32,857 nt of DNA from Bacteroidales bacterium (GTDB taxonomy: Bacteria; Bacteroidota; Bacteroidia; Bacteroidales; 4484-276). How positions within the stretch are numbered: the stretch's first letter is position 1; every line of letters begins with the position of its first letter. The notes under the pieces are model-generated. The model made no database searches and was not told the origin of the DNA. It saw only the letters and a list, made by a program, of their open reading frames with translations. A program made the translations under genes and the position numbers. Location of the stretch: NCBI GenBank assembly GCA_012523265.1, contig JAAYIU010000040.1, forward strand, positions 1 to 32,857, written 5' to 3'. Positions 4,481 through 17,766 of this stretch are shown here, piece after piece.

Positions 4481-5977
4481 TTATTTAATCACCAGCTTGG
4501 TGCTGTAGATGCTTTCCTTGTTGGCAAGATTAAGAAGGTAAACGCCTTTGGCCATATTTTTCAGGTCTATGCCAACGGTATTGATTCCGGTGTTTAGTCT
4601 TACGTCGCCCGTGCGGATTAGCTTTCCGGTAAGGTCGGTGATGCTCCATGAGGCTTGCGATGGAGTATCAACCACCATTTGCAGCGTAGTGCTTCCGGAG
4701 GCGGGGTTAGGATACAAGGTTACATTATTTTTAGCAAAATAATCGTCGATGCCGGTAGCGCCCATGGTTGTAAACGAAAACACTTCGCTGTAGTCGCTTG
4801 TATCGTAGGAGGTGGTAGCGCGTATCCGCCAAAAATACTCGGTCTTGTGTGCCAATGTTTCGATGAGGTAATAGGAAGGGGAGGTTTCAGCATCACTGGT
4901 AGGTTTGTAGGCAACAAAAGAATCAGAGAAATCGGCATTTTTGCTGTATTCAATTTTGTAAGAAGTAGTGCCTTTTATCTGACTCCATTTCAGTTGCGGT
5001 TTTGTAGATACGCTGTCCATGCCATTTTCAGGAAAAAGAGGATTTACGGCAGCAGCGGTGGTAAATATGCGTATTTCTGACCAGCCGCTTGTGTCGCGCA
5101 TATTCTGTCCGCGTACATGCCAGTGGTAGGTAGTACCATATTTCAGTGGTGGTGTAGGTACTCTTATGGAATCTACAAAATACATCAGGGCATTGTTCCA
5201 GTTCTCGTTGATGTGTATCTGATAACTGTAGGTTTGCGTGCCTTTAAACTCTGTCCAACGCAGCTCGTGATTCAATCTTGAATTGGTTTCACCATTGTCG
5301 GGTTTCCTCAGGGCTATGGTATTATCGGTGGTGAAGCTGCGCACTTCGCTCCAGGCAGAGCTATCGGTAGCATGAACGGCGCGCATGCGCCAGTAATGGG
5401 TTTGTCCGTAGTATAAATATTTAACCTCATACTCTTTTTGTCCTTTTTGTGCCGGAAAGGCGTTCCATATCGGGCTGGTGCCATTAAAAGGAACAGTATC
5501 TACTTGTATCTGGTAGTGTGTGAAGCCTGAGAGTTTGCTGGAGTTTCCGGTCAGTTTTTCTTTCCACTTCAGCGTTACGTTGGCTTTTTCGCCGGTAGCA
5601 CCATTGGCGGGGCTGTTTAGCTCCAGAAAATCGAAGGTGGTAAAGCTGCGTGTTTCAGTCCATCCCGACACGTCTTCGCCATCGATGGCGCGTGCTTTCC
5701 AGAAATATTGTGTCTGGAACATCAGGCAGCAGGTTTGGTATGCCGAGTAGGGCGTAAATTCATGTACCACCACATCGGTAAAGTTTTCGTCGAGTGCCAC
5801 CATCACTTCGTAGCTGGTAGCGTTTACTACTGCCGTCCAGTCAAGGATAACGTCGGGCATTTGTTTTACGGCTTCATTGGCAGGAGCTACTGATTCAGGA
5901 GTGTCCACGCGCGTCTGTGCCTGAAGCAGTGTAGTGGTAAAGAATAATGCAAATGCTATTAATAATATCTTTTTCAT
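4481..5977 (-). CDS. Secreted protein with tandem fibronectin type III-like modules and T9SS type A C-terminal sorting domain
   Basis: N-terminal signal peptide (MKKILLIAFALFFTTTLLQAQ). Repeated Y-W-(R/K)-x-RA...SxWSExRxFTT modules. C-term VTLYPNPASGSTTLQM...GKLIRTG...GVYLLNLANKESIYSTKLVIK. Confidence 0.85.
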   Translation of the reverse strand: MKKILLIAFALFFTTTLLQAQTRVDTPESVAPANEAVKQMPDVILDWTAVVNATSYEVMVALDENFTDVVVHEFTPYSAYQTCCLMFQTQYFWKARAIDGEDVSGWTETRSFTTFDFLELNSPANGATGEKANVTLKWKEKLTGNSSKLSGFTHYQIQVDTVPFNGTSPIWNAFPAQKGQKEYEVKYLYYGQTHYWRMRAVHATDSSAWSEVRSFTTDNTIALRKPDNGETNSRLNHELRWTEFKGTQTYSYQIHINENWNNALMYFVDSIRVPTPPLKYGTTYHWHVRGQNMRDTSGWSEIRIFTTAAAVNPLFPENGMDSVSTKPQLKWSQIKGTTSYKIEYSKNADFSDSFVAYKPTSDAETSPSYYLIETLAHKTEYFWRIRATTSYDTSDYSEVFSFTTMGATGIDDYFAKNNVTLYPNPASGSTTLQMVVDTPSQASWSITDLTGKLIRTGDVRLNTGINTVGIDLKNMAKGVYLLNLANKESIYSTKLVIK

Positions 5978-6006: not shown

Positions 6007-9000
6007 CTACTTAACAATGAATTTGCTGTTGAACGACTGACCAAGAGCATACACGCTGACCATATAGATGCCGCTTGTCATTTGGCTACAGTCGATGCTG
6101 AATGTGTTGTTGCCCCTGGATTGATTGTTCAGTGCAAATTCTCTTACTACCTTTCCGGTGATGTCGAACACCTGAACGGTAACATTTTCAGATTGCCGAT
6201 CGAGCTGGTAGCTGATGCTTGCCTCGTTCATTACGGGGTTCGGCGAAATTACAAGATTGCTGCTTGTGGCAGTAGGGTCTGTATATTTATCATCATCAAT
6301 ACCAACATAATGATAGGTATCGTCGCGGAAAACGCCACGTCCGTAGGTGGCACAGTAGATGTCGCCATAGTTGTCGACAGCGGGATACACTACTGGTGGT
6401 ACCAGCGGGTCAGGACCTGACAGAGTAATCTGATCGGTATAGGTAGTCTGTTGTTCTAATTTCACCACCATGGCTTTGCCTATACCTTTGCTTGCAAAAC
6501 TCCATTCAGGAATGCTATCGGTAAGATTATCGGTGGCGTAAATGCCAAATTCAGTTCCGATGATCCCTACCGACGAGTTTTTCATTTCGATTACCGAAGA
6601 ATAAACCGGAGCTTTGGGCAGATTGCCGGTGATGTTGGTGAAAGTCATAGTGCCATTGCTTGCCAGCGCGTTCATCGATTGATACACATAATTTTCGTTG
6701 CCATAGTTGCCTAAGGTAAGGATGATATGCTGCGGATTTTGCTGATCGACAGATAAAGAAGTTATGTAACGGCCATCAAACGCACTATCAGCTATTTCGG
6801 CCACAGCCAACACGGTGAAGGGGCTGTCGATGTCGCCGGAGCGTTTATCGTACGCATCTTTGAGGTTCGATACACGGTAGATGCGTCCGTTTTCGGTGCC
6901 AACAAAAAGATGATTGGCATCACTGGATAGTGCCATGCACGAGGGTTTGGAGAAGTTGCCGGTGGTTTGCAGCACTTTCCAGATGTTACTGCGTTCCTCG
7001 TAAACAGGATTAAATTTGATGGTGCTGTCGAATTTGATAAAATCATTGGTCATGTAAACGGCGCTATGATTGGCAATAAAAAGTTTGCTCTGCACGATAT
7101 CCTTAACGCTGATAGAATCGCCTGCAACCAGTGAATCCTGATCAAGGACATAATAAAACGGATAGCCTTTGTCGCCTTCAAAGCCTTTGTTAACGCTGCG
7201 TACCAGCAGTGTTTCGCCCTGATAGTAAGTTCTGTCGGCTATAAATTTTGTATAAAATTTCGAACCATAGTCATTAAAACTTTCCCACAAGGCAAAGGGT
7301 GTAATGAAAAGGTTGGTGGTAGGGGGTGAAAAGTTCAGTGAAAAGCTTTCACCTTTGTCGCCTGTGCGCGCCAAATTCCCTCTGCTGTCGCTCACCATAA
7401 AGGCTGCCGGATAAATAAGGGAAACTTTGGCCGATCCGCCCGATGATCCTATTCCGCCATACACGCGCTCACCGGTTTCGGGAGTGTTGCCGTTTCCGGT
7501 TACATATTGAACGCCGTTACCGTGCACTCCTGCCAGGAAGGTGTGCTTACGACCCGAAATGCCAAGGGTGTAAACCTGTGCTGTGGAAAGACCACGGATA
7601 ATCTGGGTGTATTCTACAGCGTTTTGGCTGAAGTTGCCAAAGGCTATGCCCTGGTTGGTTGCGATGGCAAATTTGTTGTTATTATTTGGAAAAAAAACAT
7701 AATCGTGATGATAATAGGGCAGGTAATTGTCGAATCCGGGGAAAGCTCCCGAAGAGATAGCTCCTGCACCCCAGTCGTAGAAACCGCCATAGGGTGTTTT
7801 CTTGCCGTACCAAAGGTTGTCGCCACCCAGCAGCACTCTGTAAGGATCGTTGGGAAACACTGTGATAACGCTGTTGTAGCATGCTGTTCCGTCAAAAACT
7901 TTCATCGTAGAGCTGGCACCACCCGGAAAGATCACTTTCCAGGTAAGTCCTTTGTCGGTGGAGAGGTAAAAATTCTCCATGAATCCGTTGCTCACCGTGC
8001 TGGTGACGTACATCACATTTTCGTCGGTGGGTGCAATGGCAACCTGCGAACGACCGTTGGTAGCAGTAGAATATGGGCTTTCAGGTACTTTTAGGTTATC
8101 CCACGGGGTAACGACGTTGTAATTGATAGCACCACGATTGTAGATCTGATTGTTGGTGTCGATCACGATGAGATTGGTTGTGAAGTTTTTGTCTTCGCGG
8201 GCAAACATATCGAAGTTCTTGGGATTGCCCGAAATATTGCGGAATACCGGATCGGCACCGCCATCGGATACATACACTATATTATTAAAGGAAGCGATAA
8301 GATTTCCGTTTGGACCAACATCAACAGCATCACATTTTATCTTGCCAAAAGTTTTTTCAGCATTAATGCGGGCTATTTCGTTTTTGTTGTAAAGCAGCGT
8401 ATCGATAATGGTTTTCTTCAGCCCTTCTATTACCAGTTGGCCGGTAATTTCGTCGATGTACCAACTGTTGACCATTTTTGTGGTGTCCACCTGAATATTT
8501 ACACCATAGGTGATGGAGTCGGTTTCGTAGCGGGTTACTTTTTGCCAGGTCGTGCCTTTGTCGTTGGTGAAAAACAAACCTGTGTTGGTGGCGGTGTAGA
8601 CGCGGTCGTTGGCTGCATCGTACTCCATATCATACACATACGCCCAATCAACGGTATCGTTGGCCTGAGTTACCTGCGGCTGAGTGGCCGGAAGGAGTGT
8701 AAAGTTATCCTGATCGGTTGATTTGTAGACGCCCGTGCCGACAATACCGCTGTAGTAGAGGTTGTTCTGCGCATACTGCACGTTGTCGGTGCAGAAGGCA
8801 TCGCCTGTACCGGCGTAGATGTTGCCATCGTTGTCCTGCACCATACTGGTAACCTTCAGGTTTTGGTTGGCCTGATTGAGTTTTGTCCAGGTAGCACCCT
8901 GATTGGTGGTGCGCCATATTCCACCGGTGATGCTTGCCAAAATCAATGAATTGTTGCTTGCTTTATTGTCGAACAGCATAGCGCGTACCACGCCGGGAGC

Positions 9001-9285
9001 GTTGTCGGGCCCCATGCTTTTCCAATTCAGGTTTACTTCACTGCCTGCTTTTAGTGCCATCATTGCGTTGGCAGTAGCATGTGCTTGCAACTCGTCGTTG
9101 GGGTTCACACGCAGCGTCACCTGGTTTCGGCGAATCTTGTTTAAATAATCTGCCGCATTTTTGGTGGCCACAGTGCTATCGTTCTGTGGCACTGCTGGCT
9201 CACCAGTGAGACCGCCGGCCAGAATAATCGAGGCTACTCCTAAAATGAGGGTAAATAAACTAAGTGGTAAAAGTTTACTTTTCAT
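6007..9285 (-). CDS. Large secreted sialidase/BNR-like beta-propeller protein with T9SS type A sorting domain
   Basis: 1092 aa. Signal peptide, repeated propeller-type motifs (GGIWRTTNQGATWTKL, TNDKGTTWQKV, STDKGLTWKV) and C-term LVISPNPVMNEASISYQL...GKVVREF...SGIYMVSVYALGQSFNSKFIVK. Confidence 0.8.
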   Translation of the reverse strand: MKSKLLPLSLFTLILGVASIILAGGLTGEPAVPQNDSTVATKNAADYLNKIRRNQVTLRVNPNDELQAHATANAMMALKAGSEVNLNWKSMGPDNAPGVVRAMLFDNKASNNSLILASITGGIWRTTNQGATWTKLNQANQNLKVTSMVQDNDGNIYAGTGDAFCTDNVQYAQNNLYYSGIVGTGVYKSTDQDNFTLLPATQPQVTQANDTVDWAYVYDMEYDAANDRVYTATNTGLFFTNDKGTTWQKVTRYETDSITYGVNIQVDTTKMVNSWYIDEITGQLVIEGLKKTIIDTLLYNKNEIARINAEKTFGKIKCDAVDVGPNGNLIASFNNIVYVSDGGADPVFRNISGNPKNFDMFAREDKNFTTNLIVIDTNNQIYNRGAINYNVVTPWDNLKVPESPYSTATNGRSQVAIAPTDENVMYVTSTVSNGFMENFYLSTDKGLTWKVIFPGGASSTMKVFDGTACYNSVITVFPNDPYRVLLGGDNLWYGKKTPYGGFYDWGAGAISSGAFPGFDNYLPYYHHDYVFFPNNNNKFAIATNQGIAFGNFSQNAVEYTQIIRGLSTAQVYTLGISGRKHTFLAGVHGNGVQYVTGNGNTPETGERVYGGIGSSGGSAKVSLIYPAAFMVSDSRGNLARTGDKGESFSLNFSPPTTNLFITPFALWESFNDYGSKFYTKFIADRTYYQGETLLVRSVNKGFEGDKGYPFYYVLDQDSLVAGDSISVKDIVQSKLFIANHSAVYMTNDFIKFDSTIKFNPVYEERSNIWKVLQTTGNFSKPSCMALSSDANHLFVGTENGRIYRVSNLKDAYDKRSGDIDSPFTVLAVAEIADSAFDGRYITSLSVDQQNPQHIILTLGNYGNENYVYQSMNALASNGTMTFTNITGNLPKAPVYSSVIEMKNSSVGIIGTEFGIYATDNLTDSIPEWSFASKGIGKAMVVKLEQQTTYTDQITLSGPDPLVPPVVYPAVDNYGDIYCATYGRGVFRDDTYHYVGIDDDKYTDPTATSSNLVISPNPVMNEASISYQLDRQSENVTVQVFDITGKVVREFALNNQSRGNNTFSIDCSQMTSGIYMVSVYALGQSFNSKFIVK

Positions 9286-9754
9286 GTTGTGTTATTTTGA
9301 TTAGTATGTATTGCTTTGCTTTTGCAAATAAAGTTCCAAATGTAGCTTCAGGCCTGATTTTGACGTCGTTCTAATCAGTGTGCGGCCAACTGGAATCAGT
9401 TATCGGCTTCTGTTTAAATGCCTGTTTTTGCTCGTTTCATCACCTAAAAAATCTTAATTTTTGAACGAACAAAATTGGAAAAAAAAATCCAACCAGCCAT
9501 CCTTTTTTATCAATTCAAAACCATTTTAAATAAAAAAAACCTGCCATACGCTCCACAAAGGTAGGTAATACTTGTAACATCCACCTTTTATAGTTGCTGG
9601 TTAGTATGCCAAAGAAAAAATACAAAAGTACTGTTTCAGCAATGGGGAATCCATTTTTGTCTGAATTTATTTTCATTTTCTTCACAATTTTCGCCTCTCA
9701 TGGCAATTCCTGATGTTTTTTATTATTAATAAATCAAAATTTATAGCATAGAAT

Positions 9755-9786
9755 TTGTAAGCCAACAAAGCTTTTTAATACATTTG
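9755..9786 (+). promoter_or_regulatory. Candidate Bacteroidetes -33/-7 promoter for the C1-like gene
   Basis: TTG (9755-9757), 21-bp spacer, TACATTTG (9779-9786) matching TTG-N19~21-TAnnTTTG, about 60 bp upstream of the start codon. Confidence 0.55.
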
Positions 9787-9845: not shown

Positions 9846-10946
9846 ATGAAAAGAATTAATCTCCTCACCTGGTGCCTGGTAGCTCTATTTGGCCTGGCCA
9901 CATTTGATGCAACAGCACAGAAAGCCGACCTTAAGCTTAAAACCGTAAAAAGTGTAAAAACTGCCGACACCAAAGCCCTCAAACGCCAAAGCTCCTGCTG
10001 GAGCAATGCCGGCACCGCGCTCCTTGAGGCTGAGTGGCTGCGCAACGGAAAACCTGAAGCCGACCTTTCGGTAATGGATTTTGTGCACAATGCTTACCTG
10101 CTTAAGGCACAGGCTTACCTCGATTGGGAGGGCAAAATTAAGGTAAACGAAATGTCGCCGGCCATCGACGTAATGAAACTTGCCAAAGTGTATGGCTTTG
10201 TTCCCGAAACTGCCTACATGTATCCGCAGCAAGACCTGATGTCTCCTAACACTGCGGAGATGGATGCCATTTTGCGTGGCACCCTGCGCTTGGTGCAGGA
10301 AAAAGAAAAGGGAGTTTTTACCGAAAAATGGCAAAACACCTATAACACCACCCTGATGCGCTACATCGGCGAAAGCCAGATCAGCTTCGACTACAACGGT
10401 ACTACCTATACACCGGTAAGCTTTGCCCAATCCTCAGGCCTCAACTTTGACGATTACCTGATGATGACCTCCGATTTGCGCAGCGATAAAAATACAAAAT
10501 GCGATCTGCAGATGGCACAAAACTGGGGCGACTACAAATTTTATAATGTCGCTTTCAACGATTTGAGCCAAACCATAAACAATGCTGTCGAAAATAATTA
10601 CACCGTACTTTGGTATGGTAAACTCGATAAAGATGCTATGGTTGGCGATGATATGGCTGTGGTTTCGGCAGGTGACAAAGAAAAACCTACCGCCGAAATG
10701 GAAGTAAGTGCTGACCTGCGCCAGGAGACTTTTGAGGAAAATATCTCCAAAGAACAGGATTATCTCCTGATTTTTGGAATTGCAAAAGATGAAGAGGGAA
10801 AGACCTACTTCCAGGCGAAAAAGGTGTGCGAAGCCGGCGACCAGGTTGTCAATTTGTCGGAAGCTTACGTCAGCCTCAACACGATTCATCTTACCCTTAA
10901 CAAAAATGCCATGCCGGCAGCGCTTCGCAAAGGCCTTGGTTTGTAA
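9846..10946 (+). CDS. Secreted C1B (aminopeptidase C/bleomycin hydrolase-like) family protein, probably catalytically inactive
   Basis: Signal peptide ending ATAQ. SSCWSNAGTALLEAEWLR around the nucleophile region, PVSFAQSSGLNFDDYLMMTS, and C-term SEAYVSLNTIHLTLNKNAMPAALRKGLGL resemble Bacteroidetes C1B peptidases. Expected His and Asn positions are not conserved. Confidence 0.75.
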   Translation: MKRINLLTWCLVALFGLATFDATAQKADLKLKTVKSVKTADTKALKRQSSCWSNAGTALLEAEWLRNGKPEADLSVMDFVHNAYLLKAQAYLDWEGKIKVNEMSPAIDVMKLAKVYGFVPETAYMYPQQDLMSPNTAEMDAILRGTLRLVQEKEKGVFTEKWQNTYNTTLMRYIGESQISFDYNGTTYTPVSFAQSSGLNFDDYLMMTSDLRSDKNTKCDLQMAQNWGDYKFYNVAFNDLSQTINNAVENNYTVLWYGKLDKDAMVGDDMAVVSAGDKEKPTAEMEVSADLRQETFEENISKEQDYLLIFGIAKDEEGKTYFQAKKVCEAGDQVVNLSEAYVSLNTIHLTLNKNAMPAALRKGLGL

Positions 10947-10970: not shown

Positions 10971-11006
10971 AAAATCCTGTTCCTAAAGTTGGAACAGGAT
11001 TTTTTT
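10971..11006. terminator. Bidirectional intrinsic terminator between the C1-like gene and batE
   Basis: aaaatcctgttcc-taaagtt-ggaacaggattttttt stem-loop with T-tract. Confidence 0.9.
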
Positions 11007-11025
11007 GTATCAAAAAATTACTGTA

Positions 11026-11778
11026 TTAAATCTTTCTGATGTCTTCTTCTTTGAGCCACCCTACACTGCCGTTGGCAATTGTTATTTCGTACCAGTCGCC
11101 CACATGGTCGGTAAGTTGCACTTTGGTGCCTTCGTGAATTACAAAAAGGTCGATGCTCGAATCGGTGGGTGAGCTTTTGATGGTGACTGTGGGTGTAAAA
11201 ACAATAGCCTGATGATCGCGGCTGAAAGAGGTGTGTTTTTGCCGGGCAAGCAGAAACGATACTCCAAACAGGATCAAAAAGATGATGCCGCTCCAGAAGC
11301 TGGCTTTTCTAAGCCAGACGATATTCGAGAGTAAGAATACCAGCAGCATGAGAATTGTCAGGCCAAATACTGTAAGGCTTATCCAGCCCCATGCGTCGAG
11401 CGAGAAAGCATAGACCAGGCTTTTCCACCAGCGTGCGTAAAAAGCTTCAGGGACAGTTTCTATTTTGTCGACGATGCGGTTGTTGGCAATGCTTAGGTTG
11501 AACAAAATATTGTCGTCAGCGGGTGCGAGCTTGCGGGCTTTTTCGTAATAGAGGATTGCCTGCGGCATATTGTTGAGCTTAAAATAGGTGTTGCCCAAAT
11601 TGTAATACAATTCGGGCGCCTCGTAGCCATTCTCGATCACCTTCTGGTAAAGTGTGGCAGCCTGCTCATATTCGTTTTGGTTGTAGAGATTGTTGGCTTC
11701 TTCTATCAAAAGCTGGTTGTCGTCGGCCCACGCGAATGTTGCGCTAAGCAAAAAAAGGATGACAAGGAATTTTTTCAT
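11026..11778 (-). CDS. batE: BatE-like TPR + transmembrane + SH3 domain protein
   Basis: Signal peptide, TPR repeats (EYEQAATLYQKVIENGYEAPELYYNLGNTYFKL), two TM helices, C-terminal bacterial SH3 (VTIKSSPTDSS...VGWLKEEDIRKI). Last gene of the bat operon. Confidence 0.8.
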   Translation of the reverse strand: MKKFLVILFLLSATFAWADDNQLLIEEANNLYNQNEYEQAATLYQKVIENGYEAPELYYNLGNTYFKLNNMPQAILYYEKARKLAPADDNILFNLSIANNRIVDKIETVPEAFYARWWKSLVYAFSLDAWGWISLTVFGLTILMLLVFLLSNIVWLRKASFWSGIIFLILFGVSFLLARQKHTSFSRDHQAIVFTPTVTIKSSPTDSSIDLFVIHEGTKVQLTDHVGDWYEITIANGSVGWLKEEDIRKI

Positions 11779-15743: not shown

Positions 15744-16748
15744 TTACGGTGTGCTTCTGAACAATGTGTTTTTTAATAAAATCTCCAAACCAAAAAGCAC
15801 CAGCGCCAGCAATGCCAGCGGATAGAACTCTTCGGTTTTCTTATGAAATTCAGTGACGTCAATTTTGGATTTCTCCAGTTGATCGATCTCCTGATAAACG
15901 GCTTCGAGTTTTTGATTAGAGGTGGCTCTAAAATATTTCCCGTCGGTCATGGCGGCGATTTGCTGCAGCAACGCATCATCAATTTTTACCTCCATATTCT
16001 GATAACGCATTCCAAAAGGAGTTTGAACCGGGTAGGGTGCCACTCCTATAGTTCCCACGCCAATGGTGTAAACGCGGATGCCGTAAAGTTTGGCAATTTC
16101 GGCAGCCGACAGCGGATCCACAGCGCCCATATTATTCACACCATCGGTAAGCAGGATGATTACTTTGCTGATGGCTTTGCTGTCGCGCAGCCGCGTGATG
16201 GCCGTAGCCAGTCCGTCGCCCAATGCTGTTCCGTCTTCTATCATGCCGCTTTTGAGCTGGCCAAACATTTCTTTCAGCACCTGATGGTCGGTGGTGAGCG
16301 GCACCTGGGTAAAAGTTTCGCCGGCAAATACTACCAGTCCCATCCGGTCATTCGGGCGATTTTTGATGAAGTCGATGGCTACCTTTTTGGCGGCTTCAAT
16401 GCGGTTGGGCTTTAGGTCTTCGGCAAGCATACTTCCCGAAATGTCCATGGCCATCACGATGTCGATGCCTTCGATGGTGATATCCTGCGAGCTGGAAGTG
16501 CTTTGCGGACGGGCAATGGCTACAATGAGCAAGGCCACAGCCACTATGCGCAGCAAAAAAAGTGTGTGATACAGCCATTGCCGCCACGACCAGCGTGTAC
16601 GGGCAAAAAAACTCGTGCCCGAAATCTGTATCTCCGCTTTGCTGTGGCGGTGTTTGAACCAATACCAAATCCCCATCAATGGGATTACCAGCAAAAGATA
16701 GAGGTATTCAGGATTGGCAAATTCGATATTATTGAGCATAGCTTTCAT
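15744..16748 (-). CDS. batA: BatA-like von Willebrand factor A domain membrane protein
   Basis: TM N-terminus, MIDAS VMAMDISGSMLAEDLKPNRI, LLTDGVNNMGAVDP, C-terminal TM helix. Confidence 0.87.
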   Translation of the reverse strand: MKAMLNNIEFANPEYLYLLLVIPLMGIWYWFKHRHSKAEIQISGTSFFARTRWSWRQWLYHTLFLLRIVAVALLIVAIARPQSTSSSQDITIEGIDIVMAMDISGSMLAEDLKPNRIEAAKKVAIDFIKNRPNDRMGLVVFAGETFTQVPLTTDHQVLKEMFGQLKSGMIEDGTALGDGLATAITRLRDSKAISKVIILLTDGVNNMGAVDPLSAAEIAKLYGIRVYTIGVGTIGVAPYPVQTPFGMRYQNMEVKIDDALLQQIAAMTDGKYFRATSNQKLEAVYQEIDQLEKSKIDVTEFHKKTEEFYPLALLALVLFGLEILLKNTLFRSTP

Positions 16749-17766
16749 TGCGGGTTACTGTGGGAGCCGCCTCTGCGATGGCTTCCTTTGTATATTCGTT
16801 TGAACCATTCATCTTTTCTGTTTTGTTTTCGGATGCCGGCGCGGTGTCCTTTACAAAGTCGGTTGCCTGCTGCATGCTTTGGCTGTTCTCGCCGGGTATC
16901 GGTGTGTATTTTGCAAATTTCACCAGATCGGCCAGCTCGAGAATTTGCTGCAGCTCACGCAGGTTTTTATCCGGCAAATTGATGTCGTATGCTGCCTGCA
17001 TAATCTCCTGAGAGGTCATTTCGGGAGCCATAATACCAAACCGGTCGTCGAGGTACTGCCTGACGATTTCCGTAAGGCGCGAGTGATATAGTTTGATCAG
17101 GTTTTTTTGCCATAGCTTTTCGTTGCGCAGTTTTTCAAGCTCATCGAGCGCCCACCGGTGGGGCGGTATTTTTGGCTTCGGGCGCGCAAACACAACAGGC
17201 TGTTTTTTCTTTCTTTTTTTATAATAATAAAAAAGAGCGGCGCCGATAAGCAGCACGGCCACTATGAGCAAAATCCACGGAAACAGTTCGGCAAAAGTTA
17301 GCGGCGCAGCGATAGGACCTTTGATGGGCTTGATGGCTTGTGTAGTATCTACTGCTACCGTAAAAACGTTTAGCAGGAAAGGCTCCGTTTCTGCTATGGT
17401 ATCCAGGGCTGCGCCTGTTGCAAAACTAACAGGCGGAATCACATAATACCCCGAGTCGAAGACGGTGATGGTAAGCTTTTGATCGATGCGCAGCATTCCG
17501 TTAGCCATGCGCGTGGTGTCGATGGTTCCGCGGTGTATAATCTCGATGTCGGCGGTGAGGGTATCGGTAAAAACAGGCCACCGGAAAGGTGTGGTTTGCG
17601 GAAGCTGCAACTGCAAATTAAAACCGATTTGGTCGCCGATAAGCATGCTGTTGGTATCCAGCGAAGCGCTGGCCACAGGCTGCTGAGCCTGGGTTGTCAT
17701 CGTTATCACCAGCAGCAACGACAATAGAATTTTATTGATATTTTCGTTCATCATTTTCATAATCAA
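16729..17766 (-). CDS. DUF4381-like membrane protein of the bat operon
   Basis: Signal peptide, Ig-like ectodomain, single TM (FPWILLIVAVLLIGAALFYYYKKRKKKQP), cytoplasmic HRWALDELEKLR...YHSRLTEIVRQYLDDRFGI typical of DUF4381. Overlaps batA by about 20 bp. Confidence 0.7.
   Translation of the reverse strand: MIMKMMNENINKILLSLLLVITMTTQAQQPVASASLDTNSMLIGDQIGFNLQLQLPQTTPFRWPVFTDTLTADIEIIHRGTIDTTRMANGMLRIDQKLTITVFDSGYYVIPPVSFATGAALDTIAETEPFLLNVFTVAVDTTQAIKPIKGPIAAPLTFAELFPWILLIVAVLLIGAALFYYYKKRKKKQPVVFARPKPKIPPHRWALDELEKLRNEKLWQKNLIKLYHSRLTEIVRQYLDDRFGIMAPEMTSQEIMQAAYDINLPDKNLRELQQILELADLVKFAKYTPIPGENSQSMQQATDFVKDTAPASENKTEKMNGSNEYTKEAIAEAAPTVTRNESYAQ

Follow-up and report, generated by a model that had tools for sequence, protein, structure and literature searches.

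Can a peptidase gene that has lost its catalytic triad be a maintained gene rather than a relic in decay, and if so, what could its product still do? This question is raised by one gene in the stretch of Bacteroidales DNA analyzed here, hereafter the window, which is 32,857 nucleotides long. A sequence-only reading of the window had described the gene product as a secreted, full-length relative of aminopeptidase C and bleomycin hydrolase, in which Cys alone remained of the active site. The gene is the following.

9846-10946, forward strand: pseudo-C1B peptidase gene, 366 aa, recognized by its open reading frame, its homology to 3pw3/5wdk, and its AlphaFold2 model

The reading frame is indeed unbroken, with 366 codons and a TAA stop. 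None of the Pfam and NCBIfam models matched the protein even at an E-value of 10, and this includes PF03051 (Peptidase_C1_2), the model of bleomycin hydrolase and PepC. Its membership in the C1B fold family is nevertheless clear over the whole chain, from both sequence and fold. A phmmer comparison with the Parabacteroides distasonis C1B peptidase (3pw3/5wdk) gave an E-value of 5e-36, and an AlphaFold2 model, computed with nine orthologues as input (pLDDT 77, pTM 0.77), was matched by Foldseek to the same enzyme (5wdk) with an E-value of 7.8e-28, a TM-score of 0.77-0.80, and a probability of 1.0. This enzyme, Pd_dinase (BDI_2249; PDB 5wdk, 5wdl, 6w4n, and 3pw3), is a C1B dipeptidyl aminopeptidase, described in the PDB as processive, and the pseudo-peptidase shares with it the whole-chain fold, the Cys that opens the active-site helix, and the C-terminal tail. 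It differs from Pd_dinase in lacking the active-site Gln, His, and Asn, in having Cys in place of the Trp of the NSW motif, in a four-residue deletion after that position, and in the loss of several residues that are universal in the active group. Bleomycin hydrolase and PepC have the same C1B fold but are more distant (Foldseek E-value ∼1e-13), and they retain the triad that the pseudo-peptidase lacks.

The active-site positions, assigned to the Gln, Cys, His, and Asn columns with HMMER and MAFFT alignments, are listed below, with counts for the 11 members of the pseudo-peptidase clade and for a comparison set of 60 further C1B sequences, drawn from the order and the phylum.

9978-9980, forward strand: Leu45, at the position of the oxyanion-hole Gln (L/I/Q in 8/2/1 clade members, Q in 60/60 active homologues)
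9996-9998, forward strand: Cys51, at the position of the nucleophile, invariant (11/11)
10005-10007, forward strand: Asn54, invariant in the clade, Phe or Tyr in active homologues
10758-10760, forward strand: Asp305, at the position of the catalytic His (H in 0/11 clade members, 60/60 active homologues)
10821-10823, forward strand: Lys326, at the position of the catalytic Asn (N in 1/11 clade members, 60/60 active homologues)
10827-10829, forward strand: Cys328, at the position of the NSW Trp (C in 11/11 clade members, W in 57/60 active homologues)

Both programs placed Leu45, Cys51, Asp305, and Lys326 where they had been placed by eye, so that the Cys of the CW motif is present, and the oxyanion Gln, the His, and the Asn of NSW are missing. 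Clade-wide, Gln, His, and Asn are retained in 1, 0, and 1 of the 11 members, against 60, 60, and 60 of the 60 ordinary homologues, while the catalytic Cys is found in all 11 and in 59 of the 60. The subclade proposed in the sequence-only reading thus exists, although the exact letters do not form a conserved set: position 45 is mostly Leu or Ile, the His position holds D, N, K, S, or G, and the Asn position holds K, C, Y, D, Q, G, or N, as is expected where catalysis no longer constrains these residues. A His elsewhere in the active-site geometry, which had been named as evidence against the reading, was searched for column by column, and no invariant His column occurs among the 11 orthologues. 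His81 was considered as a replacement base and rejected, being present in only 9 of the 11 and lying in a helix predicted at 78-93. Since the His base, the Asn, and the oxyanion Gln are lost, we infer that papain-type hydrolysis would be impossible for this protein.

The changes also extend beyond the triad. Gly103, His107, Pro224, Asp225, Asp259, Asp303, and Asp304 (window numbering) mark positions that all or almost all active forms share and that vary in the clade; therefore, the original peptide pocket is probably gone, and simple binding of dipeptides appears unlikely. This bears on the idea of a decoy that traps substrates by retained binding of N-terminal dipeptides, which would suit a fold shared with a dipeptidyl peptidase but, given how many universal positions outside the triad have gone as well, is improbable.

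Regarding its distribution, C1B matches are present in all 12 genomes of the source family, and a clear orthologue of the pseudo-peptidase in 11 of them; the relatives with named records are metagenome assemblies. In the twelfth genome (G007), the contigs end between the two neighbors, at the orthologue site, so that the missing gene can be an assembly gap; true absence was rejected, as batE is cut off by the start of one contig and another contig has the T9SS gene beginning 10 bases from its start. The ten orthologues besides that of the window are 42-85% identical to it, and in the tree the 11 pseudo-peptidases are monophyletic (support 100/100) on a long stem. Between the window and its nearest relative, dN/dS is 0.15, which indicates purifying selection and is close to the value for the active C1B paralogue (0.12); the bat genes gave 0.09-0.13 and the T9SS neighbors 0.17-0.19. 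Similar pseudo forms were absent from the 30 best-matching loci at the order level and from the top matches at the phylum level. The tandem C1B pairs of another family (f20; L035, L037, L041, L042, and L043) were considered as carriers of a pseudo form and discarded, both copies being triad-intact. Two further C1B genes deserve mention in their own right: one (L110, genome G433) has Tyr for Cys (GTYWSF) but keeps Gln, His, and Asn, which may reflect a separate, different type of inactivation or an error in sequencing, and the other (L029, G000 C30), the source genome's third C1B copy, breaks off near a contig end (212 aa).

The intergenic signals around the gene are as follows.

9754-9786, forward strand: Bacteroidota -33/-7 promoter-like site TTTG-N21-TACATTTG, with its counterpart upstream of 11/11 orthologues
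10972-11008, no strand assigned: terminator-like hairpin, bidirectional, with A and T runs, in the gap that separates the convergent genes, read from the sequence

The promoter candidate, already judged good from the window alone, starts 92 bases 5' of the ATG, and the motif TTTG-N(17-23)-TAnnTTTG starts 78-92 bases 5' of the ATG in all 11 orthologues, against 0.14 expected from shuffles. In its strict form, it is absent within 300 bases of the intact-triad genes that lie beside batE in other families. Past the stop codon by about 25 bases there is a terminator-like hairpin with a T-run, and comparable hairpins lie 3' of most orthologues. The terminator earlier ascribed to the gene is thus present, but it may not be the gene's own: located between two convergent genes, it may serve both.

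The neighborhood is conserved as well.

6007-9285, reverse strand: divergent neighbor, 1092 aa, with a T9SS C-terminal sorting domain (Pfam PF18962, synteny)
11026-11778, reverse strand: BatE-like neighbor (TPR and SH3), at the end of the MoxR-DUF58-bat operon (Pfam, synteny)

The order runs from AA-kinase and OTCase-type genes through two T9SS-tailed genes, the pseudo-peptidase, batE-D-C-B-A, DUF58, and MoxR to rpoC, and it is identical in the 11 genomes as far as the contigs reach, with the orthologue always between the bat operon and the T9SS-tailed gene. The T9SS-tailed genes (4481-5977 and 6007-9285, reverse strand) form an adjacent pair transcribed away from the pseudo-peptidase and kept beside it family-wide. 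Within the bat operon, a family-conserved 345-aa ORF without a Pfam match (16729-17766, reverse strand) lies between BatA and DUF58.

Pseudogene decay or misassembly would account for three missing catalytic residues, but unbroken reading frames across 11 genomes, a low dN/dS, and conservation of both promoter and synteny contradict this explanation, and we consider it extremely improbable. The claim of a pseudo-peptidase that is maintained rather than decaying was borne out by the same evidence together with the triad-less subclade: across one whole bacterial family, the batE-adjacent C1B dipeptidyl-aminopeptidase-like gene has been maintained as a pseudo-peptidase.

Two other families (f96 and f110) likewise have a C1B gene beside batE and convergent to it, with Gln, Cys, His, and Asn intact; on its opposite side, f96 has a relative of the T9SS gene. 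Because triad-intact genes adjoin batE in these families, we infer, as the simplest account, that an ancestor of the source family lost catalysis in place, as the arrangement suggests. In the unconstrained tree, the batE-adjacent active genes are not sister to the pseudo clade; an AU test did not reject one clade of the pseudo group with the f96 and f110 batE-adjacent genes (p 0.17), or with those of f96 alone (p 0.34).

Secretion had been proposed, and a likely signal peptide is present.

9846-9920, forward strand: likely signal peptide (MKRINLLTWCLVALFGLATFDATAQ), with cleavage near residues 24-25, read from the sequence

Gln25 is invariant in 11/11 orthologues. The destination can be refined: with a signal peptide present and no T9SS tail found on the pseudo-peptidase, it is most likely the periplasm.

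A conserved inactive form with a conserved promoter most likely has some non-enzymatic job. The reading that we prefer, with a probability of roughly 0.6, is that of a periplasmic C1B-fold pseudo-peptidase whose catalysis was lost in place and which has a binding or structural role; more weakly, it includes a Cys51-Cys328 disulfide. The protein would be exported to the periplasm, fold as a C1B peptidase, and act by binding a partner or envelope protein or by its structure. C1B peptidases, for example bleomycin hydrolase, assemble into hexamers, and the pseudo-peptidase could instead be a regulatory subunit that joins active C1B paralogues and modulates how they assemble or admit substrates. 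Nearly all the genomes concerned do have triad-intact active paralogues, and the protein keeps the fold as well as the LGL tail at its C terminus; the identity to these paralogues is only about 30%, however, and they are encoded at separate loci, which leaves this an unlikely alternative.

Returning to the preferred reading, its disulfide component concerns the two cysteines. The mature chain has exactly two invariant cysteines across the 11 orthologues, Cys51 and Cys328, and in 5 of the 11 members it has no others. This pattern, the invariant Cys328 in place of the NSW Trp, and the invariant Asn54, three residues past Cys51, go beyond what had been read from the window. The pair could lie at the former active site and be linked there, in its stead, by a structural or redox-responsive disulfide, which perhaps stabilizes the protein; Cys51 may also be conserved for some other reason. 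A DsbA-type protein encoded in the source genome speaks for the disulfide, whereas no VKOR was detected in that genome, which we count against it. In a batE-adjacent C1B lineage of f110 (L034 and L054), the NSW Trp position is altered too, to His (KNSH), with the triad otherwise intact.

The protein might, on the other hand, not be inert, with Cys51 engaged in other chemistry, e.g., thiol exchange with Cys328. Both cysteines are invariant, in contrast to the drifting His and Asn positions, and the gene adjoins the bat (aerotolerance) operon; yet a conserved base is absent, and the operon lies on the other strand beyond the terminator-like hairpin, so that the two would not be co-transcribed. 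We regard such chemistry as doubtful. More speculative still is a redox-responsive periplasmic protein, made in place from a peptidase, in which Cys51 pairs with the newly fixed Cys328 and which partners the neighboring bat system.

Papain-fold pseudo-peptidases are documented in eukaryotes, namely the inactive cysteine proteases of scabies mites (PMC5956821) and Plasmodium SERA5, in which Ser replaces Cys (PMC4671257), to which the seed protein 2b1m, without the catalytic Cys, can be added. Each combines a papain-like fold with an active site that has degenerated, as here, but they are eukaryotic and not C1B, and, unlike in SERA5 and 2b1m, Cys is the sole catalytic residue retained in the pseudo-peptidase. 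Our partial search of the literature found nothing relevant on bacterial C1B pseudo-peptidases, which is weak evidence. The present case is bacterial, family-wide, under selection, and syntenic. It also carries a warning, as annotation by best hit would label this protein an aminopeptidase. The invariant Cys51/Cys328 pair yields a directly testable prediction, and the triad-keeping genes at the corresponding locus of other families provide a natural before-and-after pair.
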